Positions 28,392 through 52,319 of a stretch of DNA of 64,000 bases are shown here, piece after piece. The DNA is from Clostridium sp. 12(A). GTDB lineage: Bacteria; Bacillota; Clostridia; Lachnospirales; Lachnospiraceae. The stretch covers positions 1,488,001 through 1,552,000 of the forward strand of contig JAGI01000002.1 of NCBI GenBank assembly GCA_000526575.1, written 5' to 3'. Position 1 is the stretch's first letter. Every line of letters starts with the position of its first letter. The translations under genes were made by a program, and so were the position numbers. The notes under the pieces were generated by a model, which was not told the DNA's origin, did not search any database, and worked only from the letters and a program-made list of their open reading frames with translations.

Positions 28392-28393
28392 GA

Positions 28394-29587: not shown

Positions 29588-29598
29588 GATATTCCCTC

Positions 29599-30387: not shown

Positions 30388-30404
30388 GTTTTTTACTTCC
30401 TTTC

Positions 30405-31946: not shown

Positions 31947-31980
31947 AACCGACCCCTCCATACACCTTAAAAGATTTACC

Positions 31981-32964: not shown

Positions 32965-32976
32965 TTCTTTCTCCTC

Positions 32977-33753: not shown

Positions 33754-33770
33754 CCCTTTCTCCCTCCTTT

Positions 33771-34907: not shown

Positions 34908-34938
34908 TTTTTTCGCCTCCTGGACATTTCATTTTTGG

Positions 34939-36366
34939 TTATCGCTTATAACAGATTTTCCCTGGATTCAAGATCATCTTAGGATCAAATACTTCCTTGA
35001 TACCTTTCATTAAGCGCATGCTGGTCTCTCCTGCGAACGCTGCCAGATACTCCATCTTGCCGTGACCAATGCCGTGCTCACCGGAAATCATTCCACCGCA
35101 TTCCGCTGCCTTTTTATAGATCAGATCCATGAATTCTGCTACCTGCTTTTTAAACTCAGCCTCATCCATTTCATTGGCACAGGTATAGATATGTAAGTTT
35201 CCGTCTCCTGCGTGACCAAAGCTCTTAATGGTAAAGTCGTACCGGTCTTCCAGTGATTTGACATATGAAAGATAAGATGGAATCTGGTTGACCGGAACCA
35301 CTACATCACACTCATCCAGAAGCTTTGTTTCTGCTTCAATGGCTTCCAGGAAAGTACTTCTGGCTTCCCAGGCTTCCTTTTTCTTTATGGGGGTATCTGC
35401 CACCAGAACATCTACAGCCCCTTCTTCCAGTACCACCTCTGCTGCCTGCTCGGAAAGCTCCTCTAAAAGATCTGCTCTGTCACCATCAAAGGTAATGAGT
35501 AAGTACGCGCCAATATCCACGCCCTCCACTTCTGTTGGAAATACGTGTTTTCCCAGATACCGCTCGGAAGACAGAACGATTTCTTTTTCCATGAACTCCA
35601 GAGCCTGAGGCTTTAAGCCTGCCCGGAATATCTTTGGTACGGCGCCGATGCAGTCCTCCAGATTTTCAAAAGGAACAATCAGGCTAATGGTTTCCTTGGG
35701 AGCCGGAATTACTTTAAGCGTCAGTTCTGTTATGATGCCAAGAGTTCCTTCGGAACCGATCATCAGATTAATTAAGCTATAGCCGGTGGAGGTCTTGGAA
35801 ACCGATGCCCCCAGATGAATGATCTCTCCAGTGGGGAGCACTACGGTCATAGCCCTGACATAATCTCTGGTGCACCCATACTTTACCGCCCTCATTCCAC
35901 CTGCATTGGTGGAGACATTGCCTCCTAACGTGGCAAACTTCTCTCCTGGATCCGGGGGATATAAAAGCCCTTTGTTTTTTGCATCCTCAGCAAGGTCATT
36001 TAACAGCACTCCAGGCTGGACGCGGACCACAAAATTCTCCTCGTCGTAATTAAGAATCTTGTTCATCTTACTCATGTCAAGAAGAACTCCCCCATGAATG
36101 GCTACGGCTGCCCCGGTAAGACCAGTGCCTGCTCCTCTTGGAATCACAGGAATATTGTGTTCAAAGCACAGCTTAACAATGGCTGCGATGTCCTCCGTGG
36201 TGGTGGCTTCAATCACGACTTCCGGGATTCCCTTTCCATAAATGGGCATTTCATCATGAAAATAGTCCTCGTTGATTTCTTCATTTTTATGGACCTTCCC
36301 AGGAACGATTGCCTGAAGCTCCTGTATTAACTGGGGAGTAACCTGATTGTAAGTTACATCTTCCAT
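34939..36366 (-). CDS. second GlcD-type FAD-linked 2-hydroxyacid dehydrogenase
   Basis: A 475-residue paralogue of the dehydrogenase at 26988. It has the PCMH domain ([20 protein letters not shown] near residue 75; PPDPGEKFATLGGNVSTNAGG near 137) and the C-terminal [15 protein letters not shown] and SGEHGIGHGK motifs. It probably oxidises one lactate enantiomer or a related 2-hydroxyacid. It lies between larA and bcd, with 31-33 bp gaps. Two paralogues with one racemase could mean one enzyme per stereoisomer, or one tied to each Etf pair. Sequence alone does not decide. Confidence 0.82.
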   Translation of the reverse strand: MEDVTYNQVTPQLIQELQAIVPGKVHKNEEINEDYFHDEMPIYGKGIPEVVIEATTTEDIAAIVKLCFEHNIPVIPRGAGTGLTGAAVAIHGGVLLDMSKMNKILNYDEENFVVRVQPGVLLNDLAEDAKNKGLLYPPDPGEKFATLGGNVSTNAGGMRAVKYGCTRDYVRAMTVVLPTGEIIHLGASVSKTSTGYSLINLMIGSEGTLGIITELTLKVIPAPKETISLIVPFENLEDCIGAVPKIFRAGLKPQALEFMEKEIVLSSERYLGKHVFPTEVEGVDIGAYLLITFDGDRADLLEELSEQAAEVVLEEGAVDVLVADTPIKKKEAWEARSTFLEAIEAETKLLDECDVVVPVNQIPSYLSYVKSLEDRYDFTIKSFGHAGDGNLHIYTCANEMDEAEFKKQVAEFMDLIYKKAAECGGMISGEHGIGHGKMEYLAAFAGETSMRLMKGIKEVFDPKMILNPGKICYKR

Positions 36367-36399
36367 TTTTCTGCCTCCTTTGCGGTAGTTATCAGTTAT

Positions 36400-37692
36400 T
36401 TATTGTTCCTTATTTCTGACGATTACGGATACCCCGTCCGGGATCACTGTGATGGTCCCGTCAGACCTTCCAAGATAGGCGTCTGCCATGGAGATGGCTT
36501 CTTCCACGCTGTCTGCGTAATCCATCTGCATCTCATGGACCATTTCCCTGGGGGCCTCTGTGACCATGATGACCTTATATTTTAGAAGGATTCTGCATAG
36601 AATCTGTGATTCCCACTGATCCGGTACGGTCTTATCTCTGGGAGTGGAAAGAAAACGCTTCATAATTTCATTCTTATCCGCTCCCCCTGCAAAGGTATCG
36701 TAAAGGGACTCTCCTCCATGACCGTCCTTGCAGCTTGCTGCCATGATGATCACGCCTCCTGGCTTGCAGGTTGCCTCTGCGGCTGTCATTCCTTTTACCG
36801 ACTGGTAGATATTCTGATCTAAGGGGTAGCCTCCATTGGTGGAGATAACAATATCTCCGGGAAGGGCATCCACTCCTGATAAGGCATCTACAAATTTGCA
36901 GCCCTCCCTATGAGCTTTATCAAAATGACCTGAATAGGCCTTAATTACCTTCTTATTCTCATCCAGCACTACATTGATGATAAATGCCAGATTCACCTTG
37001 CCTGCGGCATAGATCATATCCTTATGTATGGGATTTCCCTCAAGGATTCCGGTTCTTGCATATTGGCTGTCAATGAATTCCGAGCAGTGGTTTGCCATAA
37101 CTGTCACGCCGCTTGAAACTCCTGGTAATACGCTCTTTCTGCCACCGGAAAATCCGGCGAAGAAATGAGGTTCGATAAAGCCCTCGGAAATCAAAAGGTC
37201 TGCCTCTGCTGCAACCCGGTTAATTAAAAGCCTTCCGCCGGAAGGCAGGGTATCGATGAAAACCATATCCTCATCCTTTTGGCTTTCATGTACGAGAAAG
37301 CGGATATCATCTCTTTCTACAATGGACTCACCAAACTTATCAATGAGCTCTTCCCTTGTGGTGGGCCTGTGAAATCCCGTTGCAATTAATATAGTGAGGG
37401 TTGCCTCCGGATTTCCTTCCTTGATTTCTGCCATAACCGCAGGCATGATCACCCGGCTTGGAACCGGACGGGTATGATCGCTTGCAATCATGACAATGTT
37501 TTTCTTCCCCTTAACAAGTGCTCTAAGCCGTGGGGATTCTATGGGGTTTTCCATAGCATTTCGAACAATCTCTTCCTCGCCGCCATCAGGGTGATAGCTG
37601 TGGGCACCTGAGAGAAGAATCCCGTTTAATCTGCTGTCAGGGATGGTTACACTGATTTTGTCTCTTCCAAAAGGAAGATTAACTGTTGCCAT
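36400..37692 (-). CDS. larA: nickel-pincer lactate racemase (LarA family)
   Basis: A 430-residue LarA-family protein that interconverts L- and D-lactate with a nickel pincer nucleotide cofactor. The residues matching the Lactobacillus plantarum enzyme are present with nearly identical spacing: His108 (GFHRPT), His176 (EPHFFAG), Lys186 (GGRKSVLPG) and His202 (NHCSEF). The DHTRPVP motif lies at 72-78. Cofactor-making LarB/LarC/LarE are not in this window. It sits between hbd and the GlcD-type gene. Other LarA homologues racemise different 2-hydroxyacids, so lactate is inferred from the permease. Confidence 0.88.
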   Translation of the reverse strand: MATVNLPFGRDKISVTIPDSRLNGILLSGAHSYHPDGGEEEIVRNAMENPIESPRLRALVKGKKNIVMIASDHTRPVPSRVIMPAVMAEIKEGNPEATLTILIATGFHRPTTREELIDKFGESIVERDDIRFLVHESQKDEDMVFIDTLPSGGRLLINRVAAEADLLISEGFIEPHFFAGFSGGRKSVLPGVSSGVTVMANHCSEFIDSQYARTGILEGNPIHKDMIYAAGKVNLAFIINVVLDENKKVIKAYSGHFDKAHREGCKFVDALSGVDALPGDIVISTNGGYPLDQNIYQSVKGMTAAEATCKPGGVIIMAASCKDGHGGESLYDTFAGGADKNEIMKRFLSTPRDKTVPDQWESQILCRILLKYKVIMVTEAPREMVHEMQMDYADSVEEAISMADAYLGRSDGTITVIPDGVSVIVRNKEQ

Positions 37693-37711: not shown

Positions 37712-38551
37712 TTATCCTTCGTACTGGTAAAAACCGCTTCCTGTCTTTTGTCCCAGCTTTCCGCCCCGTACCATTTTTTTCAGCAAGGGATGAGGACGGT
37801 ACTTTGGATCTCCTGTTTCGGAATGCAGGACTTCCATAATGGCAAGAACCACATCAAGGCCGATTAAATCTCCCAGCTCCAAAGGTCCCATAGGGTGATT
37901 GGCTCCCAGCTTCATGGCACTGTCAATTCCAGACGGATCAGCGACTCCTTCCGCATAAATTCCTATCCCCTCATTAATCATCGGAATCAGGACTCGATTG
38001 ACTACAAACCCGGCAGCTTCCTTCACCTGTACCGGAACCTTTCCAATATCGGTTGCAATTCGTTTGATCTCTTCCACCATATCAGAGGGGGTATTGAGAC
38101 CTGCAATGACCTCCACCAGCTTCATAACCGGAGCCGGGTTAAAGAAATGCATGCCGGCTACGGGACGGTCAAGACCTGCTCCCAATTCTGTAATGGAAAG
38201 GGATGAGGTGTTGCTTACAAACATACACTCCTCTTTACAGATCTCCTGAAGCTTTTGAAATGTCTGCTTTTTCACTGCCATATCTTCTATGGCTGCCTCA
38301 ATCACCAGATCACAGTCAACACAGATATCTATCACTCCTGTGGAGATTCTGGAAAGCAATTCATCCCTGCTTTCTTGTGTGATCTTTCCTTTTAAGACTC
38401 TTCGCTCCAGGCCCTTAGCAATTTTCTTTTTCCCATTTGCCGCAAACTCCTCATTAATATCGCATAAGCAAACCTCATAGCCCTCTGTCTGGGCAAATGC
38501 CTGGGCGATTCCTGAGCCCATGGTTCCTGCGCCGATAATTCCCACTTTCAT
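37712..38551 (-). CDS. hbd: 3-hydroxybutyryl-CoA dehydrogenase
   Basis: A 279-residue Hbd. The Rossmann motif [14 protein letters not shown] (residues 7-20) is followed by [12 protein letters not shown], the catalytic-His segment [16 protein letters not shown] near 138, and the C-terminal helical domain ([18 protein letters not shown]). It reduces acetoacetyl-CoA to (S)-3-hydroxybutyryl-CoA. A perfect AAAGGAGG precedes the start. It lies between crt (43 bp upstream) and larA (19 bp downstream), so butyrate and lactate genes are interleaved in one run. Confidence 0.94.
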
Positions 38552-38594
38552 CCCAATACCTCCTTTTCACTCTACCAATGCAGCTTTTATCACA

Positions 38595-39371
38595 TTACTT
38601 CATCATGAATCTCTTCTCTTTCCGCTTTTCTAAAAATGCACCCATTCCTTCTTTTTGGTCGTAAGTTTCAAAGCAGTCACCAAACAGCTTTTCTTCGATT
38701 ACCACTGCCTGATCCATATCTACCTGGAGACCATCATTGATGGCCTTTTTACAGTTTCTCACTGCTATGGGAGCATTGTCTGCAATCCCTTTTGCCATTT
38801 TTTTCGCCTCGGTCAAAAGCTCATTTTGGGGATAGATGGCATTCACCAGGCCGATTCGGTATGCTTCCTCTGCCTTAATATTTCTTGCGGTGAAGATCAT
38901 CTGTTTTGCCATTCCAGGCCCTACGATTCGAGCCAGCCTCTGAGTGCCTCCAAAACCTGGAGTGATTCCAAGTCCTGCTTCCGGCTGACCGAATACGGCA
39001 TTTTCCGAACAGATTCTGATATCACAGCTTAGGGAGAGCTCACAGCCGCCTCCAAGGGCAAAGCCATTGACAGCCGCTATGATGGGAATAGGAAAGGTTT
39101 CCAGGCGTTTAAAAATTTCGTTTCCTCTTTTTCCAAAGGCCTCTCCTTCTTCCTTTGAAAAAGAGCTCATCTCTCCAATGTCTGCTCCTGCCACAAAGGA
39201 TTTCTCTCCGGCTCCTGTTAAAATCAGTGCTCTTACTGAGCTTTGATCTATTTCATCCAGTATGTGATCCAGTTCCTCAAGCACCTGACTGTTTAAGGCA
39301 TTGAGTGCATCTGGACGGTTAATGGTAATCAATCCTGTCTGGCCTTCCACTTCGTATGTAACAAATTTCAT
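38595..39371 (-). CDS. crt: crotonase (3-hydroxybutyryl-CoA dehydratase)
   Basis: A 258-residue enoyl-CoA hydratase. The oxyanion-hole segments are GAGEKSFVAGADIGEM near residue 55 and NGFALGGGCELSLSCD near 102. The catalytic Glu pair is in ALGGGCELS and GQPEAGLGITPGFGG. It interconverts 3-hydroxybutyryl-CoA and crotonyl-CoA, the point at which the 4-hydroxybutyrate branch (AbfD product) joins. ATG 39371 follows AAAGAGGGG. It lies between the thiolase and hbd genes. Confidence 0.93.
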   Translation of the reverse strand: MKFVTYEVEGQTGLITINRPDALNALNSQVLEELDHILDEIDQSSVRALILTGAGEKSFVAGADIGEMSSFSKEEGEAFGKRGNEIFKRLETFPIPIIAAVNGFALGGGCELSLSCDIRICSENAVFGQPEAGLGITPGFGGTQRLARIVGPGMAKQMIFTARNIKAEEAYRIGLVNAIYPQNELLTEAKKMAKGIADNAPIAVRNCKKAINDGLQVDMDQAVVIEEKLFGDCFETYDQKEGMGAFLEKRKEKRFMMK

Positions 39372-39407
39372 AAGCTGACCCCTCTTTCCATTTTAATCGT
39401 AACGGAT

Positions 39408-40592
39408 TTACTCTCGCTCCACTATGGTGGCACAGCCCATACCGCCTCCTATGCAAAGGGTGGCAAGCCCTCGTTTCGCATCTCGTTTCTCCATCTCATG
39501 AAGTAAGGTCACCAGAATACGACAGCCGGATGCTCCCACGGGATGACCTAAGGCTATGGCTCCGCCATTCACATTGACTTTAGACATATCAAGGTTTAAA
39601 TCACGGGCTACAGCCAGTGACTGGGCTGCAAATGCCTCATTTGCCTCAATGAGATCAAAGTCCTCTACCGAATGATTCGTCTTTTTTAACAGTTTTTTCG
39701 TGGCAGCTACCGGGCCGACTCCCATGATTTCAGGGGCTACGCCTGCCAGAGTTCCGGCTTCCCAGAATGCCATAGGTTTAATCCCAAGCTCCTTTGCTTT
39801 TTTTTCGCTCATAACTACAATAGCTGCAGCTCCATCGTTTATGCTGGAGGAGTTGGCTGCCGTCACGATTCCATCCTTTTTAAAGGCTGGTTTCAGCTTT
39901 GAAATACCTTCCCAGGTAGTTCCAGGTCTGGGACCTTCGTCTTTATCAAAAATTATGGTTTCTTTTCTTTTTTTGATTTCTATGGGTACGATTTCATCAT
40001 CAAACCGACCGGATTCCTGTGCGGCACAAGCTTTTTGCTGGCTGGAGGCTGCAAAGCGGTCCAGCTCTTCTCTTGTGAGCCCCCACTGCTCTGCGACATT
40101 TTCAGCCGTGACTCCCATATGATAATCGTTTGTTGAATCCCATAAGGCATCGTTAATCATGGAATCTACAATCTGACCATGATTCATCCGGTAACCGTAA
40201 CGGGCATCTTTTAACAGATAGGGAGCCATGGACATATTTTCGGCTCCTCCGGCTACCACGATATCCGCATCTCCACTGAGAACCATTTCCGCCGCCAGGT
40301 TGACACAGTTTAATCCGGAACCGCAGACCACATTGACGGTTACGGCTGGAGTTTCCACGGGAATGCCTGCTTTTAAGGAAGCCTGCCTGGCAATGTTTTG
40401 TCCAAGCCCCGCCTGGATGACACAACCCATATATACAAAATCAACCTGTTCCGCCGGGACCCCTGCCCGCTTTAATGCAGCCTGAATCACTACCGCCCCC
40501 AAATCCTTTGGAGAAACTGTACTTAAAGCTCCTCCCATTGATCCGATTGCCGTACGGCATGCACCAGCTAAAACAACCTTTTCCCCCATCAT
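39408..40592 (-). CDS. thlA: acetyl-CoA C-acetyltransferase (thiolase)
   Basis: A 394-residue thiolase. The nucleophilic Cys is in [14 protein letters not shown] near residue 89, the catalytic His in [13 protein letters not shown] near 350, and the second Cys in [10 protein letters not shown] near 380. It condenses two acetyl-CoA to acetoacetyl-CoA. Two adjacent ATG codons follow AGGAGG, and either may be used. It is the first of the butyrate genes and lies 32 bp after the acyl-AMP ligase of the LuxC/LuxE module. It could therefore serve that module as well as the butyrate pathway. Confidence 0.94.
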
Positions 40593-40624: not shown

Positions 40625-42040
40625 CTATATTTCCAGCTCACTGTAAAGGGTTTTTCCTGATTCATTTTTAGGAATTGTACTCACCGATCTGATCGTCACG
40701 GCTCTGGGGCTGATCCCGGTAATCTCATATAGATATTCCATGATCTCCTTAAAGCCTTCTTCCCCTTTGGTATCCGTATAAATGATCAGGCTGTCATCCC
40801 TTCCCAGACAAGCAAAATCAACTCCTTCAAAATGTTCCTTTAAAAGCCTCTCCACCTCATCAAGGTTTACCCTGTTGCCAAAGAGTTTGATGAAACGTTT
40901 CTTTCTTCCTGTTATGTAATAAAAGCCATCGGCATCTCGTTCTGCCATATCTCCCGTATAAAGGATTCCATTCCATTCATCTTCTTTTTTCAAATCCTCT
41001 CTGCTGGAAGCATAGCCAAGTGCTACGTTATCTCCCTCATACACCAGCTCTCCCTGGACGAAAGGTTCTTTGATTTCTTCTCCTATGTCATCTCTCAGCC
41101 AGAATCTCCCTCCTGGTATGGCAACTCCCATGCTGCCGCACCGCTCCACAGCGCTGTCAGCCGGAAGGTATCCCATCCTCGCAGTGGCCTCTGTCTGCCC
41201 ATACATGACCACAAATTGCTTTCCTGTCTCTTTGGCGTAGACCGCGAATTCTTTATGGAGAGTCGTTGGAAGTTTTCCTCCTGCCTGAGTCAGGGTTCTT
41301 AACTCCGGTAACTCCATTTCCAGAAATCCAATCCTTTTTAAAAGCTGATACGTATATGGAACACCGCCTAAGGATGTAATCTCCCTTTCTTTTACAAAAT
41401 CCCAAAACGGGCGTTCCACAATACTTTTGGTGGTGAGATAAATGGCAGCGCCTTTTTTTACATGGCTGTTTATTATGGATAATCCATAGGTATAATTCAT
41501 GGGAAGCGTGGTGACAGGCCTCTCCTTCTCCTGGATTTTCAAATAGGAACAAATGGACTCTGCATTTGCATCAATATTTTCTTTACTCTGCCTTACAAGC
41601 TTGGGGCTTCCCGTACTTCCTGATGTGGTGAGAAGAAGGGCAAGCTCTCCGTAAAGAGAGGGAGAACGAAACGTTTTTTTCTCACATAAACAGTATCCCT
41701 TGACTCTCCAGACAATCTCACATTCCCCTGTTTTTGTGAGGCAGTCTTCCGGCACATATAAAAAGGCGGGACAGTATTCTTCCATCAGCCGGGCCAATAG
41801 CTGGGGATTGATTTGTTTTTCCAGCATCAGGGGAACAACTCCTGTTTTTAAACAGCCAAGATAACCAAGAAGGGAACCTATGGTATTTTCGCATAGAATA
41901 AAAATCAGCTTTTTTCCTCCCACGCGCCGGATCAATTCCTCTGAAAAAGAGTTTAAATCCTGATAGGATACCCTGCCGCCCCCATCATCTTCTGCCAGCA
42001 AACGGTCTTCATAAAATAATTCGTTTTTAAACAGCCCCAT
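40625..42040 (-). CDS. acyl-AMP ligase (ANL superfamily), probable ACP loading
   Basis: A 471-residue adenylating enzyme. Motifs in order: the P-loop TTSGSTGSPKLVRQ near residue 155, NYTYGLS, MYGQTEATARMGY, YTGDMAERDADGFYYITGRKKRF, and the catalytic Lys in KNESGKTLY near the C-terminus. The DltA/AMP-binding style and the nearby acyl carrier protein suggest it loads a carboxylic acid on that carrier, but CoA ligation is possible. ATG 42040 (GGGAGG upstream) overlaps the LuxC-like gene by 14 bp, indicating coupling. The substrate is unknown. Confidence 0.85.
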   Translation of the reverse strand: MGLFKNELFYEDRLLAEDDGGGRVSYQDLNSFSEELIRRVGGKKLIFILCENTIGSLLGYLGCLKTGVVPLMLEKQINPQLLARLMEEYCPAFLYVPEDCLTKTGECEIVWRVKGYCLCEKKTFRSPSLYGELALLLTTSGSTGSPKLVRQSKENIDANAESICSYLKIQEKERPVTTLPMNYTYGLSIINSHVKKGAAIYLTTKSIVERPFWDFVKEREITSLGGVPYTYQLLKRIGFLEMELPELRTLTQAGGKLPTTLHKEFAVYAKETGKQFVVMYGQTEATARMGYLPADSAVERCGSMGVAIPGGRFWLRDDIGEEIKEPFVQGELVYEGDNVALGYASSREDLKKEDEWNGILYTGDMAERDADGFYYITGRKKRFIKLFGNRVNLDEVERLLKEHFEGVDFACLGRDDSLIIYTDTKGEEGFKEIMEYLYEITGISPRAVTIRSVSTIPKNESGKTLYSELEI

Positions 42041-43247
42041 GCTCTTCCTCCCGGATAATTTCCCTGGACAACATACGAATCGTATCCTGCCCATCCCAGA
42101 TCAGATCCATGTTCATGGCATTTCCCACAGGTATTATTCTGTGGATTCCATAAAGGTGGTGATCCATTACATAATCCATGAGTTCCTTTGATTCCAGCCC
42201 ATAATAGGTCACCGTCTGGAGCTGACTCACTGCCAGTTCCTTAAGAACCTTTCGGTAATCTCCCTGATACTCAAAGAACAATCCCCAGGTTCCCCGGTAC
42301 GTTTCTGGAGCTTTGGGTATCCCGGACAGAAGAATTGTATAAACCAGATTACCATACCTCTCTGTTTTTATAATGCCTTCCATTGTCATGGTATATCTGC
42401 ACAGTGCTTCATACTTCTTTGTGGCTTTATGAGGACTTAAATCATAGGAAACAGCTTCCTTTTCTACGGCTTCCCACCACATTCTGTGAACTGCTTCTGC
42501 CTCTTCTTTCTCTTCCCCTTGGTTCCATATGATATAACGAGGACTGGAGCAGGCATTCTGATCCATGGCATAGGTGTCGTTAATAAAGGAGTGTGCTAAG
42601 TTCCTTAATTCTTCTCCTTGCATTCTGGCGATGGTTTTCTGATCCAGAATACAGATGGAATACCGGTCTGGAAACATGATGGAAACTCCATCGGGCCTTA
42701 AATTCCATTTTCTAATGACTGATATGGTTTCATTACCGCCCCATACCATCAATCCATCACAAGCCTCTGCCCAGCTTCTTACCATTTCATGGTCTCTTTC
42801 ACAGGAAAAAACTGAAATTCGGTCCCTCATAGAGGCAAATGGCGGTATGTTCAAAAGATTGTCTATGATTTCACATAGTTTGAAATCCTCTTCCTGACAT
42901 CGGATTGAGATTCGTACAACGCAGCTGTTTCCAGCCAGCAGACCCATGACCATACTGTATGCAAATAGCAAGGGAACATTGGAAGCTGCCATATGAAAAA
43001 CCACACCTCTGCCGATACGGACCCGGCCATCTTCATACCGCTTTTTAAATTCCTCCACATGAGCCCTTCTTATCCAGAACCCAAATGCAGCCATTTCCGG
43101 ATATTTTAATGATTCTCTATCCCTTCGTATTTCCTTAGAAAGCGCCTCCAGAAAATCCAAAACCAATGTGTCAAATGGGGCCGAAGGCTCTGACTTTGGT
43201 CGTTCCACTCCTGCCAGATAGGTAATCTCAGCCTTCATAGGTGTCAC
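42027..43247 (-). CDS. LuxC-family acyl-thioester reductase
   Basis: A 406-residue LuxC-type protein (fatty acyl reductase, aldehyde dehydrogenase superfamily). The nucleotide-binding region includes GRGVVFHMAASNVPLLFAYS near residue 79. The catalytic Cys233 is in MDQNACSSP, the family signature. LuxC reduces an acyl thioester to aldehyde with NAD(P)H. The start is probably GTG 43247, close to a GGGGG site, with ATG 43238 as alternative. It overlaps the LuxE-like gene by 20 bp. No luxAB genes are present and the host appears anaerobic, so the aldehyde serves something other than light. Confidence 0.87.
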   Translation of the reverse strand: MTPMKAEITYLAGVERPKSEPSAPFDTLVLDFLEALSKEIRRDRESLKYPEMAAFGFWIRRAHVEEFKKRYEDGRVRIGRGVVFHMAASNVPLLFAYSMVMGLLAGNSCVVRISIRCQEEDFKLCEIIDNLLNIPPFASMRDRISVFSCERDHEMVRSWAEACDGLMVWGGNETISVIRKWNLRPDGVSIMFPDRYSICILDQKTIARMQGEELRNLAHSFINDTYAMDQNACSSPRYIIWNQGEEKEEAEAVHRMWWEAVEKEAVSYDLSPHKATKKYEALCRYTMTMEGIIKTERYGNLVYTILLSGIPKAPETYRGTWGLFFEYQGDYRKVLKELAVSQLQTVTYYGLESKELMDYVMDHHLYGIHRIIPVGNAMNMDLIWDGQDTIRMLSREIIREEEHGAV

Positions 43248-44304
43248 TGCACCCCCTTATTTCCGCCTGGTGGATCCTTCCGCATACCTTAAAATATTTT
43301 CCCTTCCTACCACAGGGACAATCATCCTCTCCAAGAATGATACCCTCATCTTCCGTAAGTACAGAGTGACCGGGATAGGAATGAGCCAGTGGTGAGAGCA
43401 CCTGTATGATTCCTTTTTCTCCATGAGAACAAAGGGAAAAATCCCTGGCTCTTCTGGTGATGATGTCAGAATAAATACTTGCATGGAGATGCCCATGAGA
43501 GCATTCCATATAGATGCTTCCTGTTTGCTCCGCCATTCCATAGTAGTTATGAATGCTTCTGCATCCAGTGACTTCCCATAGCCTTTCCTTGAATTCTTCC
43601 GGAGACACGGATTGATCCCTCAGCTTTTTAAATCCGCCTCCATGGATCAAAATGCCGTCTGAAAGATCCAGCTTTCTCCCGGATTGCTTGAGTGCCTGAT
43701 AAAGGCAGGTCCAGATGATATAGGTAAAACCAAAGATCAGGACCTTTTTCCCCTGATATTGCTCAAGAAATTTCTCTATCCCTTCTAAATCAAGGTTCAT
43801 ATCTTCATCAAGCCCGTAAAAGAGCTTGGAAGAGAAGATCGAAAAACCAAGAATCCCCGCTCCTCTGGCAGAGAACATGTTTCTGTCCTTTAATACCTGA
43901 GGGCTGTCAATGATCAGGAAAGGCAGCCTGGAATCTCCAAAATAATCGCTTCCGATATTTGCCAGTGCCCTTTGCTGGTACTCGGCTGTTTCCCGGTCCA
44001 GATAGATCCTAGAAACCTTCTGCCCGCTGGTTCCTGATGACGTCATGACTTTAAACACCTTATCTTCTCCAATACTGGTCAATTTCATTTCCTTAAAAAT
44101 ACCTACTGGAACCATGGGGATTTCTTCCTCTTCCATATCTTTAAGACGCGGAATCATCAGGTTCGTCAGCATCTGATCGTAAGGGCTGCAGTTCTGTCTG
44201 TGATGCTCCGTAAGCTCTGTCAGCCATTCTCCGTAAAGCCTTCTCTTTTCAGCCTGTGTGACAGAAAACGGCCCTCTCTTCAGAATGCCTTCATAATCTA
44301 TCAT
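43228..44304 (-). CDS. LuxE-family acyl-protein synthetase
   Basis: A 358-residue LuxE-type adenylate-forming enzyme. It has the TSSGTSGQKVSRIYLD phosphate-binding motif near residue 87, an NYYGMAEQTGSIYMEC block near 243, and a Cys-rich C-terminus (DDCPCGRKGKYFKVCGR). LuxE activates an acid as acyl-AMP and passes it to LuxC through a Cys. It is translationally coupled to the LuxC-like gene (20-bp overlap) and sits 19 bp after the acyl carrier protein. Two adenylating enzymes (this and 40625) in one module could activate two different acids, or one could feed the carrier protein. Confidence 0.87.
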   Translation of the reverse strand: MIDYEGILKRGPFSVTQAEKRRLYGEWLTELTEHHRQNCSPYDQMLTNLMIPRLKDMEEEEIPMVPVGIFKEMKLTSIGEDKVFKVMTSSGTSGQKVSRIYLDRETAEYQQRALANIGSDYFGDSRLPFLIIDSPQVLKDRNMFSARGAGILGFSIFSSKLFYGLDEDMNLDLEGIEKFLEQYQGKKVLIFGFTYIIWTCLYQALKQSGRKLDLSDGILIHGGGFKKLRDQSVSPEEFKERLWEVTGCRSIHNYYGMAEQTGSIYMECSHGHLHASIYSDIITRRARDFSLCSHGEKGIIQVLSPLAHSYPGHSVLTEDEGIILGEDDCPCGRKGKYFKVCGRIHQAEIRGCSDTYEG

Positions 44305-44323
44305 AAATGGCTGCTCCTTTCCT

Positions 44324-44560
44324 TTACATCACGACCCCGTATTTTAGCAGGACTTCCTTTCCCTTTTCGTAGGAAGAAATGTTCATGACATCCGATGTAG
44401 AGATATGAATATCAAACGCCTCCTCTAAGTCTGCGACTAAGTCCATGTGTCCCAGAGAATCCCAGGAACGGGTTCCTCTGTATTTAAGACCGGAAAGGTC
44501 CTCTTCCTTTACCCTTAAATCCCGGATAAACAGCCGGTTGTATGTTTCCAGATTTGTCAT
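44324..44560 (-). CDS. acyl carrier protein
   Basis: A 78-residue four-helix carrier protein. The phosphopantetheine Ser is Ser35 in the WDSLGHMDL motif, and the acidic helix II (DLVADLEEAFDI) follows. GGAGTGAGG precedes the ATG. This is unlikely to be the housekeeping fatty-acid ACP: it is divergent in sequence, and it is co-located with LuxE, LuxC and a MaoC-type protein rather than fab genes. It probably tethers the intermediate handled by the module. Confidence 0.88.
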   Translation of the reverse strand: MTNLETYNRLFIRDLRVKEEDLSGLKYRGTRSWDSLGHMDLVADLEEAFDIHISTSDVMNISSYEKGKEVLLKYGVVM

Positions 44561-44566
44561 ACTGCC

Positions 44567-45292
44567 TCACTCCTTTTCTCCTGCCACTATAAATAGGGTT
44601 TTCATCATCTTCTGTCTGCTGCTTACCGAAAGAATCCTCTGCCCAAGCTGGTTTTTGCAGGTTCCGTAAAAAAGCCCCATATAATGGTCATCCTCTTCCT
44701 CAAAGGAAACGAACCGGACGGTGATTTCCACAGTATCCCCCCAGTAAACAGGGCGAATGAACCTGGTATTGTGCTCCACATAGACGGTACCACTTCCTGG
44801 AAGTCTGGTCCCCATAAGGGCTGAGACCAGGGAATCCAATAGCATTCCATGTACCAGAGGTCCTTCAAAACCAGCCTTTAATGCCGTCTGCTCATCCAGA
44901 TGGAGCTTGCTTTCATCTCCAGTCAACCGGGCAAAGCATTCTGCATCCTCCCTGGATATGGTTCGTTTCATGGATGCCTCTTCACAAAGAGAAAGAATTC
45001 TTTTTTCCCTTGCTTTTTCCGGTTCTTCTTTCCCTGATGCCCGCAGCTCCCCTTGAAGACTTTGAAAGCTTTCTTCATCCCATAACAGAACTACTTTCTT
45101 ATGGGCGTTCAGATTTTTTATATCCGCACATCTTCGGCTGCAGCCGCAGACCACCAGCCAATAATCACAGACCGTATCCTCGGCAGAATTTACATATTCA
45201 TGTTCCGGGTTATCTTTTCTGAATTTCTCCACCCGTTTTGCCCTGTTATAAAATGGATTACAGCCTCCGCAATACTTAACTCCAATGATCAT
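44567..45292 (-). CDS. two-domain protein: CGGC-like Cys-rich domain fused to MaoC-type hydratase
   Basis: 241 residues. The first ~85 carry a Cys-rich block beginning MIIGVKYCGGCNPFYNR, with further Cys in VVCGCSRRC, resembling CGGC-type putative metal-binding domains. The last ~130 (from RTISREDAECFARLTGD) are a MaoC-like hot-dog hydratase. The catalytic-type Asp/His motif LTGDESKLHLDEQTA is intact, and VHGMLLDSLVSALMG follows. Hydration or dehydration of a 3-hydroxyacyl/enoyl thioester is expected. The N-terminal role is unknown. ATG 45292 follows GGAGG, inside the gap after the LysR stop. It is the first enzyme gene of the 19-kb run. Confidence 0.78.
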   Translation of the reverse strand: MIIGVKYCGGCNPFYNRAKRVEKFRKDNPEHEYVNSAEDTVCDYWLVVCGCSRRCADIKNLNAHKKVVLLWDEESFQSLQGELRASGKEEPEKAREKRILSLCEEASMKRTISREDAECFARLTGDESKLHLDEQTALKAGFEGPLVHGMLLDSLVSALMGTRLPGSGTVYVEHNTRFIRPVYWGDTVEITVRFVSFEEEDDHYMGLFYGTCKNQLGQRILSVSSRQKMMKTLFIVAGEKE

Positions 45293-45312: not shown

Positions 45313-46203
45313 CTACTTCTGGCACTCCAGCATGTTTTGTAATTCCCTGGCTGCTGTGCTAAGAGGCCTGTTCTCGTCACTGACAATGCAGATTTTACGC
45401 TCAGGAATCTGTTCATGAAGCTTGATTTCCATGATTTCTTTTCTCTCCAGGAAGGGAATCGCAAATTCCTCCGGTACAAAGCCGATGCCAAGGTTCTTTC
45501 TGATTACCGGTATGATTAAGTCCATGGTAGCTACCTCAATGGCTGGCTGCATGGTGAGGCCGCAGGAGCGGTAAAATTCCTGAAGAAAACCAAAGGTGGT
45601 AGAGGTACTGCACATGGTAATGAGAGGCAGCTTCACCACTTCTGAGAGAAACATCTTCCTCTCTCCATATTCCTGATACTTATCTCCCCCTACTAAAATG
45701 CTCTTAAAGGGCTTTACATCAACCACCTTTAACCGCTGTTCATTGTCAATGGGAGTTGTGATAATTGCCAGGTCTATCTTTCCAGCCTTTAATTCGCTTA
45801 AGGTCTGCTCCGTATTATAGTTAAAGATATTTAACTTCACCTGAGGATACTGTTCCTGGAATATCTTAAGCTTCTCTACCAGATAGGAACGCATGGACAT
45901 CTGGGTAGCCCCTAGATTGATATGATCATGCTGCTCCCCCATCAGTTCCCGAAGTTTTTCTTCTCCCTGCATCAGCTGCTTGCAGGCCGGAGCCACAAAG
46001 CTGTAGAGCAATTCTCCTTCTGCCGTAAGAGTCACGCCTTTTCTGGACCGTATAAACAGTTTGCACCCAAGCATACTTTCTAAGTTCTGCATGCAGTATG
46101 TAACGGATGGCTGGCTTGTGACCAAGGCATTAGCCGCTCTGGTAAAATTCTTATATTTTGCTACATAGTAAAAAACTTTATAGTGTTCAAAATTGGCAGT
46201 CAT
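45313..46203 (-). CDS. LysR-family regulator of the lactate/butyrate/Lux-like run
   Basis: A 296-residue LysR-type regulator. The N-terminal helix-turn-helix (FYYVAKYKNFTRAANALVTS then QPSVTYCMQNLE, residues ~8-45) is followed by the effector domain. The start at ATG 46203 gives the standard N-terminus. An open frame continues upstream to 46419 but would run into the divergent gene. It lies 20 bp ahead of the CGGC-MaoC gene on the same strand, so it is either the first gene of the long operon or overlaps its promoter. The inducer may be lactate or an acyl-CoA. This is inference. Confidence 0.86.
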   Translation of the reverse strand: MTANFEHYKVFYYVAKYKNFTRAANALVTSQPSVTYCMQNLESMLGCKLFIRSRKGVTLTAEGELLYSFVAPACKQLMQGEEKLRELMGEQHDHINLGATQMSMRSYLVEKLKIFQEQYPQVKLNIFNYNTEQTLSELKAGKIDLAIITTPIDNEQRLKVVDVKPFKSILVGGDKYQEYGERKMFLSEVVKLPLITMCSTSTTFGFLQEFYRSCGLTMQPAIEVATMDLIIPVIRKNLGIGFVPEEFAIPFLERKEIMEIKLHEQIPERKICIVSDENRPLSTAARELQNMLECQK

Positions 46204-46294: not shown

Positions 46295-46582
46295 ATGGAT
46301 ATCACACGGAAACAAATTGAATCTGTTCTTGATGCAAAGGTGCGGCCCTCTTTAGCGGCCCACGGCGGCAATGTTATTGTTTTAAGCCTTGAAAACGATG
46401 TTTTAAGGGTCCGGCTCACCGGGAAATGTTCCGGGTGTCCTGCCGCTCACAGTACCAATGAGGAATTGATTTCTCTTGAGATCAGCCAGGCATTTCCTGC
46501 TATAAAGGATATCATTTTAGTAGAAGAAACCAATACCGAACTGCTTACAATGGCACATAAAATACTGAACCATCAGCTTTAA
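46295..46582 (+). CDS. NifU C-terminal (Nfu) domain protein
   Basis: A 95-residue stand-alone Nfu domain. The cluster-binding CxxC is Cys45/Cys48 (GKCSGCPAAH), with the HGGNVIVLSL strand ahead of it. It carries or delivers an iron-sulfur cluster. ATG 46295 follows a perfect AAAGGAGG. It is the only plus-strand gene between the two large minus-strand operons. Both encode iron-sulfur proteins (ferredoxin-domain EtfA and 4-hydroxybutyryl-CoA dehydratase), which are possible clients. Confidence 0.88.
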   Translation: MDITRKQIESVLDAKVRPSLAAHGGNVIVLSLENDVLRVRLTGKCSGCPAAHSTNEELISLEISQAFPAIKDIILVEETNTELLTMAHKILNHQL

Positions 46583-46997: not shown

Positions 46998-48311
46998 TTA
47001 AACGAATAACACTTCTCCAAAACGCTTCTCAAATTCTTTGGATAACTCATCCCGGAATGCTGGAGCGGCAATCTTTATGAGTTCCTTTGCCCGGTCCCTT
47101 AGACATTTTCCCTTTAAACGAGCGATCCCATTTTCTGTTACAATGTAATCCACATCATTTCTGCTGGTTGTAACTGCAGCCCCCTCGGTAAGGAACGGAA
47201 CGATTTTAGAAATGGTTCCTCCCTTTGTCGTAGAGCCAAAGGCAATGATGGACCGGCCTCCCTTTGATGCAGAAGCGCCTCTTACAAAGTCCATCTGACC
47301 GCCTACGGCTGAATACTGCTTTAAGCCAATGGCTTCCGCACACACCTGCCCCATAAGATCAATCTGCAATGCTGAATTAATGGATACCACATTATCATTC
47401 TGGCTTATGACAAAGGGATCATTTACATAGCTGACCGGCATCATGCAGATGGCTGGATTGTCGTGGACGAAATCATAAAGAGTTCTGGTTCCCATCATAA
47501 AGGTAACCACCATCTTCTCCCGGTCAATGTTCTTCTTTTTCCCGGTAATGGCTCCTTTTTCGTAAAGGTCAATGATTCCATCAGAGATCATCTCGGAATG
47601 AATGCCAAGATCCCTTTTATCTCCCAGGAATTTTAAGACCGCGTCGGGAATTGCTCCAATTCCCAGCTGCAGACAATCCCCATCCCGGACAAGTCCTGCA
47701 ATGTTTTCCCCAATCTTTTCCTCCACCTCTCCGATGACTGGGCGGCCATGTTCATGAATGGGCTCATTGCTTTCAACGATTGCTTCCAGATTGCTGACAT
47801 GGATGAAGTTATCTCCCATGACCCTAGGCATATTGGGATTCACCGCTGCAATGACCTTTGTATTTTGCTGTTCCCCCACTTCTTTGGCAAAATCACAGGA
47901 AAGCCCGTAGCTGCAATAGCCGTGTTCATCCGGTGGTGAAAGTGTTACTAAAAATACATCTGCACAATCGGTCTGCGTCACGTAGTTTGGAATCCGGTTG
48001 AAAAAGCATGGGGTAAAATCTCCCTTCCCCTCTGCAACAAAGCTTCTGCTTCTGGCTCCGATAAACAGTGATGTATACCGAAAATGCTTTTCCATTCCAG
48101 GCTCAAAAAACCTGCATGCTCCCATATCGTGCTGCTGCACAATATGGATATTTTTTAAATCCTGATCTACTACATAATCAACCATGGCACTAAGTAGAAG
48201 ATCCGGTTCTGATGCCGCATGACCGATTAATACCGTATCCCCTGAGCGAATGATTTTTACAGCCTCCTGAGGGGATTTTAACTTTGAAGCATAGATTTTT
48301 TTCCAGTCCAC
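46998..48311 (-). CDS. acetyl-CoA hydrolase/transferase family CoA-transferase (4-hydroxybutyrate type), copy 2
   Basis: A 437-residue class I CoA-transferase of the AbfT/Cat2 group. Signatures: LQLGIGAIPDAVLKFLG, the catalytic Glu in GIHSEMISDG near residue 239, and GGQMDFVRGASASKGG. It starts at GTG 48311 with AGGAGG nine bases upstream, giving VDWKKIYASKL, which aligns with MDWKEIYLSRL of the upstream copy. The two proteins are close tandem paralogues separated by 4 bp. One probably activates 4-hydroxybutyrate, and the other may use butyrate, acetate or succinate. Confidence 0.87.
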   Translation of the reverse strand: MDWKKIYASKLKSPQEAVKIIRSGDTVLIGHAASEPDLLLSAMVDYVVDQDLKNIHIVQQHDMGACRFFEPGMEKHFRYTSLFIGARSRSFVAEGKGDFTPCFFNRIPNYVTQTDCADVFLVTLSPPDEHGYCSYGLSCDFAKEVGEQQNTKVIAAVNPNMPRVMGDNFIHVSNLEAIVESNEPIHEHGRPVIGEVEEKIGENIAGLVRDGDCLQLGIGAIPDAVLKFLGDKRDLGIHSEMISDGIIDLYEKGAITGKKKNIDREKMVVTFMMGTRTLYDFVHDNPAICMMPVSYVNDPFVISQNDNVVSINSALQIDLMGQVCAEAIGLKQYSAVGGQMDFVRGASASKGGRSIIAFGSTTKGGTISKIVPFLTEGAAVTTSRNDVDYIVTENGIARLKGKCLRDRAKELIKIAAPAFRDELSKEFEKRFGEVLFV

Positions 48312-48315
48312 GAAG

Positions 48316-49632
48316 TTACACCTCCTGATATTTTTCGGCAAAACGTCTTTGGAATTCCTCCGCCAATTCCTCCTTAAACTGAGGTGCTGCAATCCTAATC
48401 AGCTGACGTGCTCTTTCTCTTAACGTATTTCCCTTCATTTTTGCAATCCCATGTTCGGTCACAATATAATCCACATCATTCCTTGTAGTTGTAACCGTGG
48501 CTCCCTGGGTCAGATAAGGCACAATCTTTGATATGGTTCCCTTTTTCGCGGTGGAAGGAAAAGCCAGGATGGATCTTCCTCCTCTGGAAAAAGAAGCACC
48601 ACGAATGAAATCCACCTGCCCGCCGATTCCGGAAAACTGCTTTAAGCCCATGGCCTCGGAGCAGGCCTCTCCCATAAGATTGACCTCTATAGAAGAGTTA
48701 ATGGAAACCAGATTGTCGTTTCTTCCAATAATAGCCGGGTGATTGACATAGTCAACAGGAGCCATGAAAAGGCCTGGATTGTCATCTGCAAAATCATAAA
48801 GCTTCCTGGTCCCCATAAGAAATGATACCACCATCTTATCCCGATTGAAATTCTTTGCGCTGCAATTTATGATTCCCTGCTCATAAAGATCTACCACCCC
48901 ATCAGAGATCATCTCTGAATGAATGCCTAGATTCTTTTTATTACCAAGGAATTTAAGTACAGCATCGGGAATGGCTCCGATTCCAAGCTGGAGACAGTCT
49001 CCGTCATTGACCAGGGAGGCGATATGCTCCCCAATGGCCATTTCCACATCTCCGATGTGTGGAAGCCCCAGCTCCGGAATAGGGGTATCGTCCTCTACGA
49101 TGACATCAATATCATTAACATGGATAAAGCTGTCTCCAAGAGTCCTTGGCATATTGGGATTTACAACAGCGATTACCTTTGCCCCCTCTGCCTCTGCTGC
49201 CGGCTTTGTATAATCGCAGGATACTCCAAAGCTGCAATAACCGTGTTCATCGGGCAGGGATAAGGTTACTAAAACCACATTTGGCCTTTTAACTTCCTTA
49301 AAGAAATAAGGGGTCTGGTAAAAATAGCATGGTGTAAAGTCACCCCGTCCGCTGTTGACGCAATCCCTTGTTTTAGCCCCTAAAAACAGGCTGTTCTCCC
49401 TGAAATGTTTTTCCATTCCAGGCTGTGCATAAAGGGAATGCCCCATATCCACCTGCTGGAATATCTCAATGTCTTTTAAATCCGCCTTAGCGGCATAGTC
49501 CACCATGGTATCCACCAGCTTCATGGGTTCTCCCACTGCGTGGCCGATGACTACCCTGTCACCGGATTTGATCAGCTGAACAGCCTCTTCCATGGTTTTC
49601 AGTCTTGATAAATATATCTCTTTCCAGTCCAT
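48316..49632 (-). CDS. abfT: acetyl-CoA hydrolase/transferase family CoA-transferase (4-hydroxybutyrate type), copy 1
   Basis: A 438-residue paralogue of the downstream gene, with catalytic Glu240 in GIHSEMISDG (Glu238 in the Clostridium aminobutyricum enzyme) and GIGGQVDFIRGASFSRGG. It transfers CoA from acetyl-CoA or butyryl-CoA to 4-hydroxybutyrate. It lies directly after the 4-hydroxybutyryl-CoA dehydratase gene, which favours it as the true AbfT. ATG 49632 follows GGGAGG. Tandem duplication with some divergence suggests the two copies have different acyl acceptors. Confidence 0.88.
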   Translation of the reverse strand: MDWKEIYLSRLKTMEEAVQLIKSGDRVVIGHAVGEPMKLVDTMVDYAAKADLKDIEIFQQVDMGHSLYAQPGMEKHFRENSLFLGAKTRDCVNSGRGDFTPCYFYQTPYFFKEVKRPNVVLVTLSLPDEHGYCSFGVSCDYTKPAAEAEGAKVIAVVNPNMPRTLGDSFIHVNDIDVIVEDDTPIPELGLPHIGDVEMAIGEHIASLVNDGDCLQLGIGAIPDAVLKFLGNKKNLGIHSEMISDGVVDLYEQGIINCSAKNFNRDKMVVSFLMGTRKLYDFADDNPGLFMAPVDYVNHPAIIGRNDNLVSINSSIEVNLMGEACSEAMGLKQFSGIGGQVDFIRGASFSRGGRSILAFPSTAKKGTISKIVPYLTQGATVTTTRNDVDYIVTEHGIAKMKGNTLRERARQLIRIAAPQFKEELAEEFQRRFAEKYQEV

Positions 49633-49673
49633 ACCTATATGACCTCCCTGGCATATTAATTTGATAAAAGAGC

Positions 49674-51122
49674 TTAATCCTTAATATTGGCGATTGCCTT
49701 TGCAAGCTCTTTCTTCCTGCCCATATTGCTCTGGCGGGAAATCATGATTCTCTGTGCCTGTGGAGAACCAGCACCGTGAAGAGATTCGGTTCTGTATCCG
49801 ACTGCCGCAGTTCCTAAGGTGATATTTTCAATGAGACGAAGAATTCTTAACCGGTTTTCTGTAGAGACTCCCTCTACCCCTTTTAAGTATTTGTCCACGT
49901 AACCGCCCACCACAGGATCCTTTAAATCCTTTTCAGATGGAGCTGTTACCATAAGGCCACCTGCAATATCCTCTGCCAGACGGGCAATCTCATAGGGATA
50001 TCTGGTCACGTTCTGCTTGCAGACATTGGCAAGAAGAAGGTCGATAATATAATTTCCGGATTCCGTAGGCGTACCTTCTGCAGAACAGGCGATACCGCAG
50101 CAATAAAGGGTCTCGTTTAAATGGGTCATTTCAATCAGTTTATCTTTAATATGAGACGCTTTTGGCACTCCGTTATAATCGGCTGCCAAAGCTGTAGCAC
50201 CGATTAAAACATCGCCAACTCCCACCTTGCATCCACCGTAGGACTGTCTGTGATACCCGGCAAACCGTTCCACCAAAACTCCTGCAAATTCATATTCCCC
50301 ATCCATGAAAATGCGGTCATTTGGTACAAATACGTCGTCAAATACCACCAGAGCTTCCACGCCTCCAAACTGGCTGTTTCCAACGTCAATCTGGCTCCCC
50401 TCCAGCTTTCTGGTATCACAGGACTGTCTTCCGATGATCATGACAATTCCATCAGCGTCCGTAGGAACCGCAAAGGATACCGCATAATCCTTATCATCAG
50501 GGCCCATGGCGACCGTTGGCATGACAATCACTTCCTGAGAGTTAATGATACCTGTCTGATGAGCCTTGGCTCCTCTTACCACGATACCGTCTTTCCTGCG
50601 CTCCACCACTCTCAAATACATATCAAGATCGGGCTGTTCATGAGGAGCAAGACCCCTGTCCCCTTTTGGGTCCGTCATGGCACCATCAACGGTCAAATCC
50701 TCATCCTGAACCATTCGCAGATATTTTTTGAAATTATCGTGATAATGAGTTCCATACTTTTTGTCAATCTCATAGGTGGTGGACCATTCCGCATTAAATG
50801 CGTCCATACCGACACAGCGCTGAAAGCAGGAAGCCGTTTTCTGACCGCAGAGCCTCTGCATCTTTACCTTTTTCATCAGATCATCTGTACTTCTGTGAAT
50901 ATTGGCAAACCGGTTGATCTTTCTTCCGTCCTCCAGAGTCACTGTCATCAGATCTTCATATTCCGGCATCTGAGCTAAGTCGTAAGTGGCCTTTACCGAA
51001 TTTAGCGACGGTCTTAAAATCGGGTCGTCAACCGGGTTCTCGATCTTTTCCCCAAACATATAAACATTGAGTTTCATTTTACGCATGCTTTCTACATACT
51101 CTTCCCCTGTCATCAAAGCCAT
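49674..51122 (-). CDS. abfD: 4-hydroxybutyryl-CoA dehydratase / vinylacetyl-CoA isomerase
   Basis: A 482-residue flavin and [4Fe-4S] enzyme converting 4-hydroxybutyryl-CoA to crotonyl-CoA. The four cluster ligands are recognisable: Cys99 and Cys103 (TASCFQRC), and His291 and Cys298 (GYHRQSYGGC). These match Cys99, Cys103, His292 and Cys299 of the C. aminobutyricum enzyme. ATG 51122 follows AAAAAAGGAG, preceded by a stable hairpin in the 69-bp gap after the dehydrogenase gene. The enzyme is oxygen-sensitive, consistent with an anaerobic host. Its product enters the crt/bcd pathway encoded at 33.8-40.6 kb. Confidence 0.95.
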   Translation of the reverse strand: MALMTGEEYVESMRKMKLNVYMFGEKIENPVDDPILRPSLNSVKATYDLAQMPEYEDLMTVTLEDGRKINRFANIHRSTDDLMKKVKMQRLCGQKTASCFQRCVGMDAFNAEWSTTYEIDKKYGTHYHDNFKKYLRMVQDEDLTVDGAMTDPKGDRGLAPHEQPDLDMYLRVVERRKDGIVVRGAKAHQTGIINSQEVIVMPTVAMGPDDKDYAVSFAVPTDADGIVMIIGRQSCDTRKLEGSQIDVGNSQFGGVEALVVFDDVFVPNDRIFMDGEYEFAGVLVERFAGYHRQSYGGCKVGVGDVLIGATALAADYNGVPKASHIKDKLIEMTHLNETLYCCGIACSAEGTPTESGNYIIDLLLANVCKQNVTRYPYEIARLAEDIAGGLMVTAPSEKDLKDPVVGGYVDKYLKGVEGVSTENRLRILRLIENITLGTAAVGYRTESLHGAGSPQAQRIMISRQSNMGRKKELAKAIANIKD

Positions 51123-51141
51123 AACTATCTTCTCCTTTTTT

Positions 51142-51173
51142 GCTTTGCAGACTGACTGTCAGCGATGCAAAGC
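51142..51173 (-). other. intercistronic hairpin upstream of abfD
   Basis: GCTTTGCA (51142-51149) and TGCAAAGC (51166-51173) form an 8-bp stem with an inner CTGA/TCAG pairing. In the minus-strand RNA it ends six to seven bases before the abfD ribosome site and is followed by A residues, not T. It is therefore not a terminator and may shape processing or stability of the abfD message. Confidence 0.5.
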
Positions 51174-51191
51174 GCTGTTCCATCAATAAGC

Positions 51192-52307: not shown

Positions 52308-52319
52308 AAGCGGATTCTC

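Follow-up and report, generated by a model that had tools for sequence, protein, structure and literature searches.

A LuxE/LuxC-type gene cassette with its own acyl carrier protein accompanies 4-hydroxybutyryl-CoA dehydratase in clostridia and probably forms an acid-to-aldehyde branch of its pathway

In the 64,000-nucleotide (nt) stretch of Clostridium sp. 12(A) DNA analysed here (contig JAGI01000002.1, positions 1,488,001 to 1,552,000; called the window), five consecutive genes encode a fusion of a small cysteine-containing domain with a MaoC dehydratase, an acyl carrier protein (ACP), a LuxE-type acyl-protein synthetase, a LuxC-type acyl (thioester) reductase and an AMP-forming acyl ligase. 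The steady partner of this cassette is AbfD, the 4-hydroxybutyryl-CoA dehydratase, and not the lactate genes or the genes for thiolase, crotonase and 3-hydroxybutyryl-CoA dehydrogenase (thl/crt/hbd). The five-gene block is real and not a chance arrangement, because it is conserved in dozens of genomes. Judging from gene content, we give a probability of roughly 60% to the cassette being an ATP- and NAD(P)H-driven acid-to-aldehyde branch of the succinate/4-hydroxybutyrate/crotonyl-CoA pathway around AbfD. Since many relatives keep both gene sets adjacent, the cassette has probably been overlooked as a step of the route from succinate and 4-hydroxybutyrate to butyrate.

All five genes are located on the minus strand with intact open reading frames (coordinates are window positions throughout), and their Pfam families and catalytic residues agree with the assignments of an earlier note on this DNA. 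The fusion protein (44567..45292) consists of about 85 amino acids with CxxC and CxxxC motifs followed by the MaoC domain (66.6 bits, Pfam cut-off 27), which belongs to the class of (R)-specific enoyl hydratases/dehydratases and has the (R)-specific enoyl-CoA hydratase 1iq6 as closest solved relative (E 1.3e-16). The ACP (44324..44560, attachment site Ser35) is the only one of the five proteins that does not exceed its Pfam cut-off (PP-binding_2, 24.1 bits, cut-off 32). LuxE (43228..44304; PF04443, 175 bits, cut-off 24.9) matches the solved LuxE 7xc6 chain E with an E value of 2.3e-16, a cysteine of the window protein being aligned with the GCS cysteine. LuxC (42027..43247) reaches 110 bits for PF05893 (cut-off 21), and the ligase (40625..42040), an ANL-fold protein and putative ACP charger, 126 bits for AMP-binding (cut-off 29.9). 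Ser35 of the ACP and Cys233 of LuxC in the motif DQNACSSP, both named in the earlier note, are unchanged in 38 of 38 and 44 of 44 aligned rows, respectively, and so is Cys352 of LuxE in 43 of 43 (one gene, from genome G048, was entered twice in these alignments). The genes had been described as mostly overlapping; this applies to two of the four junctions (20 and 14 nt), the other two being gaps of 6 and 19 nt. A LysR-type regulator gene (45313..46203, minus strand; Pfam HTH_1 and LysR_substrate) lies directly upstream and ends 20 nt before the start of the MaoC fusion on the same strand. It is therefore not certain that the transcript begins with the cassette, as had been assumed.

AbfD is encoded 4.4 kb from the cassette (49674..51122) and matches 1u8v over its full length (residues 3-481, E 1.3e-238). 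Around it, likewise on the minus strand, are genes for a 4-hydroxybutyrate CoA-transferase (48316..49632; 3gk7, E 1.2e-143), a second CoA-transferase copy (46998..48341; Pfam acetyl-CoA hydrolase/transferase domains), an iron alcohol dehydrogenase resembling 4-hydroxybutyrate dehydrogenase (51192..52307; Pfam Fe-ADH; solved relative 30sm 'Cvir-Hbd2', E 1.4e-142), whose substrate we take to be 4-hydroxybutyrate, and a SucD-like acylating succinate-semialdehyde dehydrogenase (52320..53678; 8cei, E 1.4e-154, scoring 200 bits over the next solved family). AbfD, one CoA-transferase and SucD thus match solved enzymes of their kind strongly, and the iron alcohol dehydrogenase matches one as well; on this sequence evidence the locus is predicted to lead from succinate and 4-hydroxybutyrate to butyrate, with the lactate genes as an addition. 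The previous view of a lactate-butyrate operon missed these genes and the second CoA-transferase (46998-53678).

Within the genus, presumably Lacrimispora, LuxC is present in 15 of 25 genomes including that of the window; among named relatives, [Clostridium] aerotolerans is closest, its LuxC being 90% identical. AbfD was found on the window or the fetched stretch in 14 of these 15 carriers, and the stretch of the fifteenth (locus L054) starts at a contig edge. The earlier note had placed the cassette at the start of a lactate-butyrate operon, but neither lactate nor thl/crt/hbd genes define it. Thl/crt/hbd together with the lactate racemase gene larA follow it in seven of the 15 carriers, so that AbfD is the steadier companion; in the other eight the downstream genes are for an acyl-CoA dehydrogenase together with EtfB or EtfBA. 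Outside the genus, a complete thl/crt/hbd set was seen in L033, thl and hbd in L085, and either crt or thl alone in L062, L065, L171 and L178.

Among 397 Lachnospiraceae genomes, LuxC occurs in 27 and AbfD in 34 (including one partial and two distant matches), with 14 genomes having both (Fisher p 6.6e-10). Ten of the 27 LuxC genomes show a linkage of cassette and AbfD; two of these ten belong to the species of the window, and in one, G048, the linkage is inferred across two contig ends. On a concatenated tree, this linkage requires two changes. Of the remaining 17 genomes, 13 carry relatives of NeuB, of split transketolases or of short-chain dehydrogenases on the stretch and are called glycan-type below; none of these relatives was seen on the stretches of L064, L067, L069 and L086.

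The association also holds in another clostridial family, f43. LuxC matches were found in 47 of its 194 genomes, seven of them weak (E 2.0e-33 to 9.6e-31) and the other 40 strong (E at most 2.1e-173); AbfD likewise occurs in 47. Strong LuxC and AbfD occur together in 39 genomes (Fisher p 8.8e-32), and the sole genome with a strong LuxC match that lacks AbfD, G932, is a draft of 450 contigs. In the 40 neighbourhoods fetched, ACP, ligase, LuxE and LuxC are all present in every case, accompanied by a sigma-54 activator homologue (39), AbfD (34), NifU (31), CoA-transferase (28), the small domain of the fusion protein, called CGGC (26), a permease (15), MaoC (12), SucD (9) and 4-hydroxybutyrate dehydrogenase (9). 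In the six stretches without AbfD, the gene is located 9.8 kb (L184), about 20 kb (L169) or about 28 kb (L180) away, or the stretch stops at or near a contig end (L192, L197, L199). Protein identities between the window and L171, the one pair compared, are 31% for the ligase, 40% for LuxE and 23% for LuxC. A class-wide search detected LuxC in 13 of 391 genomes including that of the window, five of them in f43 and one, G676, in family f56. The cassette adjoins AbfD in G676 and in four of these five f43 genomes; in G746, the fifth, the distance to AbfD is about 20 kb. Of the remaining six genomes five are glycan-type, and the stretch of the sixth (L167) stops at a contig edge.

The cassette and AbfD also share a promoter type in many relatives. 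The 300 nt upstream of each gene were scored for the sigma-54 consensus TGGCAC-N5-TTGCW, 9 or more of the 11 scored positions being counted as a site. Of the 40 f43 loci, 37 have such a site ahead of the ACP gene, 36 of these at a distance of 36-62 nt from the start; AbfD is preceded by one in 33 of 34 cases, compared to 4 of 188 control genes (200 amino acids or more, unmatched by our queries, from the same loci). According to Pfam, the activator homologue, in the one f43 copy analysed, contains a PAS domain, a sigma-54 domain and an HTH domain. In four Lachnospiraceae loci (L062, L065, L072, L137), AbfD and the NifU-CGGC-MaoC-ACP operon are both flanked by sites, and the stretches of L072 and L137 also contain an activator gene. 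The window contains 3 near-matches to the consensus, where 5.7 are expected, and none is found in front of the operon or AbfD. Its LysR gene occupies the place where other loci have the sigma-54 activator.

LuxE is known to use ATP for the activation of an acid, which it hands to LuxC for reduction of the thioester to the aldehyde. The additional ACP and ligase suggest that the acid is first loaded onto the ACP. The AMP ligase would thus attach a short acid to the small ACP, the acyl group would be carried on the cysteines of LuxE and LuxC, and LuxC would reduce it to the aldehyde. That an ACP, adenylating enzymes and a LuxE/LuxC pair near crotonyl-CoA metabolism should end in an aldehyde was already proposed in the earlier note, and we retain this prediction. 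The unchanged catalytic serine and cysteines, the linkage to AbfD and the shared promoter type in relatives all argue for it. As to the acid, succinate is our best specific guess, but a tentative one: the product would be succinate semialdehyde, formed by a CoA-independent alternative to Cat1/SucD and converted to crotonyl-CoA via 4-hydroxybutyrate dehydrogenase, CoA-transferase and AbfD. This is supported by five f43 loci (L182, L184, L196, L200, L203), which carry a 4-hydroxybutyrate dehydrogenase homologue 5-8 kb from LuxC with a sigma-54-like site of its own (9-10 of 11 positions, 49-283 nt upstream); no SucD is present on these stretches and none of at least 50% identity in the genomes. 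Furthermore, no acylating aldehyde dehydrogenase was detected at E 1e-60 in G804, G746 and G913, the last being the genome of one of the five loci, and all three have a 4-hydroxybutyrate dehydrogenase near the cassette or AbfD.

A number of observations speak against the proposed branch, above all in its succinate form. The window itself encodes SucD in addition to the cassette, as do at least five other loci of the genus (L049, L051, L053, L057, L058), and SucD is present in 14 of the 40 f43 cassette genomes. The two coexist, and therefore the cassette is no simple replacement of SucD. Seven f43 genomes have AbfD and neither a strong LuxC match nor the Lachnospiraceae-type cassette of G803. 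Four of them encode SucD and 4-hydroxybutyrate dehydrogenase at the AbfD locus; the other three show no such pair and no SucD there, one of these loci (L214) being cut by a contig end. SucD is not significantly more common without the cassette (4/7, counted at the AbfD locus only, vs. 14/40, counted in genomes; p 0.40). A 4-hydroxybutyrate dehydrogenase occurs on just nine of the 40 f43 stretches, and those of L178 and L220 have no sigma-54-like site of their own. A succinate route would have no use for the MaoC or FabZ partner, the second adenylating enzyme seems superfluous for a single acid, and the semialdehyde could also be obtained by transamination of gamma-aminobutyrate (GABA) or by uptake. 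The ligase fold and pocket reveal no substrate. The pocket segments are common to both lineages and to the glycan-type forms, with Arg288 present in 75 of 75 rows (of the 40 f43 ligases, the 32 of sufficient length are included), and for this reason all forms of the cassette may use one and the same acid. The coexistence with SucD, the lack of a significant contrast and the unexplained MaoC are the reasons why we regard the general acid-to-aldehyde branch as probable and succinate as its substrate as no more than a candidate.

The hotdog-fold dehydratase recurs in three forms, as a CGGC-MaoC fusion (Lachnospiraceae, L209), as a CGGC-FabZ fusion (L166) and as free MaoC (the 12 f43 loci counted above), which suggests that some of the loci, if not all, include a 3-hydroxyacyl/enoyl step. 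The cassette might thus start from crotonate, (R)-3-hydroxybutyrate, 4-hydroxybutyrate or butyrate and produce another C4 aldehyde, which would be a precursor of an alcohol or act as a redox valve, with MaoC or FabZ acting first on the ACP- or CoA-bound chain. The guess 'Butyrate/Butanol synthesis' made by Nie et al. (2019; PMC6615313) for a related Clostridium gene set points in the same direction. However, MaoC is not on 28 of the 40 f43 stretches, an ATP-consuming butyrate reductase would seem wasteful given the CoA routes, and our two iron alcohol dehydrogenase queries revealed no recurrent alcohol dehydrogenase beside the cassette, so that we consider this explanation possible but doubtful. 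A small aldehyde-derived signal or a building block of surface glycans, made from a C4 acid of the AbfD pathway, appears unlikely. In other Lachnospiraceae loci the four core genes do have NeuB, split transketolase or short-chain dehydrogenases as neighbours, and they also occur in flagellin-glycosylation islands (PMC7874193, PMC4875605, PMC4522980), and AbfD-linked and glycan-type ligases have the pocket segments in common. But in AbfD-linked loci no recurrent sugar gene was seen among the annotated neighbours, part of the unmatched ones being left without annotation, and a promoter type shared with a catabolic pathway favours a metabolic role. Finally, LuxC and LuxE of luminous bacteria handle long-chain acids, and the cassette could be a similar system providing long-chain fatty aldehydes for lipids (plasmalogens or waxes) which stands beside AbfD by accident. 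The linkage to AbfD in distant lineages and the NCBIfam models for the long-chain luminescence enzymes, which are far from reached (LuxC NF052251, 40 vs. 750 bits; LuxE NF052244, 68 vs. 550 bits), make this very improbable.

The N-terminal part of the fusion (45038-45292) represents a small conserved domain of the pattern YCGGCNPRYDR ... CGCxxCCA, whose cysteines 8, 11, 51 and 55 are unchanged in 15 aligned copies. It accompanies AbfD and NifU, with free copies in L077, L081, L138, L168, L170, L172 and others, and may bind an iron-sulfur cluster or serve AbfD. Of the earlier designation as a CGGC-MaoC fusion the MaoC part stands; CGGC is the name of a motif and not of a domain family, as the domain stays under every Pfam and NCBIfam cut-off in the copies tested. 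For three copies there was no match to the Pfam family CGGC (E 0.05 or 0.01), and a match to another family was below its cut-off. A protein of the metallo-beta-lactamase fold adjoins the ACP in L063, L064, L166 and L209, and an alpha/beta hydrolase is encoded beside the cassette in L077 and L081; these hydrolases could provide a LuxD-like release step. The AbfD locus of L166 contains a gene nearest to acyl-homoserine lactone (AHL) lactonases, below their cut-offs, with relatives in L205-L207, which fits a putative conversion of gamma-butyrolactone to 4-hydroxybutyrate. A conserved membrane protein adjoins the AbfD-linked CoA-transferase in L062, L077, L081, L138, L140, L168, L170, L172 and others. 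The L077 copy matches no family above cut-off and MFS_MOT1 weakly; the membrane protein is a candidate importer of 4-hydroxybutyrate or succinate.

Downstream of the ligase, the window encodes thiolase, crotonase and 3-hydroxybutyryl-CoA dehydrogenase (37712..40592, minus strand; Pfam), as previously reported, followed by LarA, an FAD-linked lactate/glycolate dehydrogenase, an acyl-CoA dehydrogenase and two proteins that we take from their sequence to be EtfB and EtfA (31981..37692, minus strand). The region 26988-36366, its gene names being in part our assumption, contains a lactate-permease-like gene surrounded by two genes resembling FAD-linked lactate/glycolate dehydrogenases and by two EtfBA pairs. 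A NifU-like small protein (46295..46582, plus strand; Pfam NifU, 66.5 bits) is encoded divergently. In L061 (G419), the genes for 4-hydroxybutyrate dehydrogenase, AbfD, CoA-transferases, LuxC and ligase each extend over two frames, probably due to sequencing errors. Another uncharacterised AbfD gene set was seen in L085, L120, L131 and L132, which encode a DUF362 protein; the cassette is not in L120, L131 and L132. L085, L120 and L132 also carry a PF04199 'cyclase', an iron alcohol dehydrogenase, thiolase and Hbd, with sigma-54-like sites before the cyclase gene in all three and before the DUF362 gene in L120 and L132.

The combination is not entirely new. Table 1 of Nie et al. (PMC6615313) lists a sigma-54 regulon of Clostridium, under an activator named XanR, with abfD-nifU-hyp-ach-golB and acp-caiC-luxEC, where we have taken ach for the CoA-transferase. 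This table row is a predicted regulon, gives no biochemistry and names no product. As in that regulon, four cassette genes of the window are tied to abfD, nifU and a CoA-transferase; in contrast, the window has a LysR regulator, no sigma-54-like site before the operon, the CGGC-MaoC fusion, and thl/crt/hbd and lactate genes downstream. ACP, FabG, AMP ligase, LuxE and LuxC are furthermore known from the flagellin-glycosylation islands of Aeromonas (PMC7874193), Enterobacteriaceae (PMC4875605) and Dickeya zeae (PMC4522980), where, in the passages on these islands, the set is termed fatty-acid synthesis and its product is left unnamed. ACP, AMP ligase, LuxE and LuxC are gathered in one region there as in the window, and the Dickeya island contains two transketolases (PMC4522980), as do several glycan-type loci of Lachnospiraceae. 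The window differs from the islands by having the 4-hydroxybutyrate pathway instead of sugar genes: no FabG/SDR, transketolase, sugar or glycosyltransferase genes are among those annotated between 31981 and 53678. The statement of the earlier note that no such pathway had been described has to be restricted accordingly, since the gene set is on record; it holds insofar as the table row gives no biochemistry and the parts cited of these sources name no product. In the glycan-type loci L063, L066, L070, L073, L076, L082, L083 and L161-L165, the ACP/ligase/LuxE/LuxC set stands beside split transketolases and short-chain dehydrogenases, and L066 and L079 contain two LuxE/LuxC pairs each.

With the Lux fatty-acid reductase (7xc6) the cassette shares the Pfam families, the catalytic cysteines and the adjacency of the genes, and LuxE-LuxC fusions occur in some relatives (L072, L082). 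The window differs by the additional ACP, second adenylating enzyme and MaoC, and no luciferase is found among its annotated operon genes. The carboxylic acid reductase GriC/GriD of grixazone biosynthesis in Streptomyces is a LuxC/LuxE-like pair which reduces a non-fatty acid, an aryl acid, without luminescence. To our knowledge it has no dedicated ACP. Our literature searches retrieved no paper containing both 'LuxC' and '4-hydroxybutyryl-CoA dehydratase', and a search on XanR, abfD and luxE yielded no further paper on this regulon. New, as far as these searches go, are the Lachnospiraceae form with LysR, i.e. the regulator swap, the fusion forms, the breadth of the distribution and the counts. 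For Clostridium, our counts extend the single row of Nie et al. (PMC6615313) and are no discovery.

AbfD and its partners form a well-studied butyrate route which has also attracted interest for synthetic CO2 fixation (PMC10249356). We found no reaction assigned to the cassette, although 39 of the 40 f43 genomes with a strong LuxC match have AbfD. Clostridia could conceivably possess a second, CoA-independent succinate route, in which an ACP-bound, ATP-driven Lux-type reductase could substitute for succinyl-CoA transferase and SucD and whose relatives would serve in surface-glycan synthesis, but we put this forward with reserve. Knowledge of the acid would tell us if clostridia use a Lux-type enzyme for the reduction of free C4 acids, and would correct annotations reading 'long-chain fatty acid'. 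The cassette could supply a non-CoA carboxylate reductase for engineering, and its acid could help to explain the ACP, LuxE and LuxC genes of the glycosylation islands.

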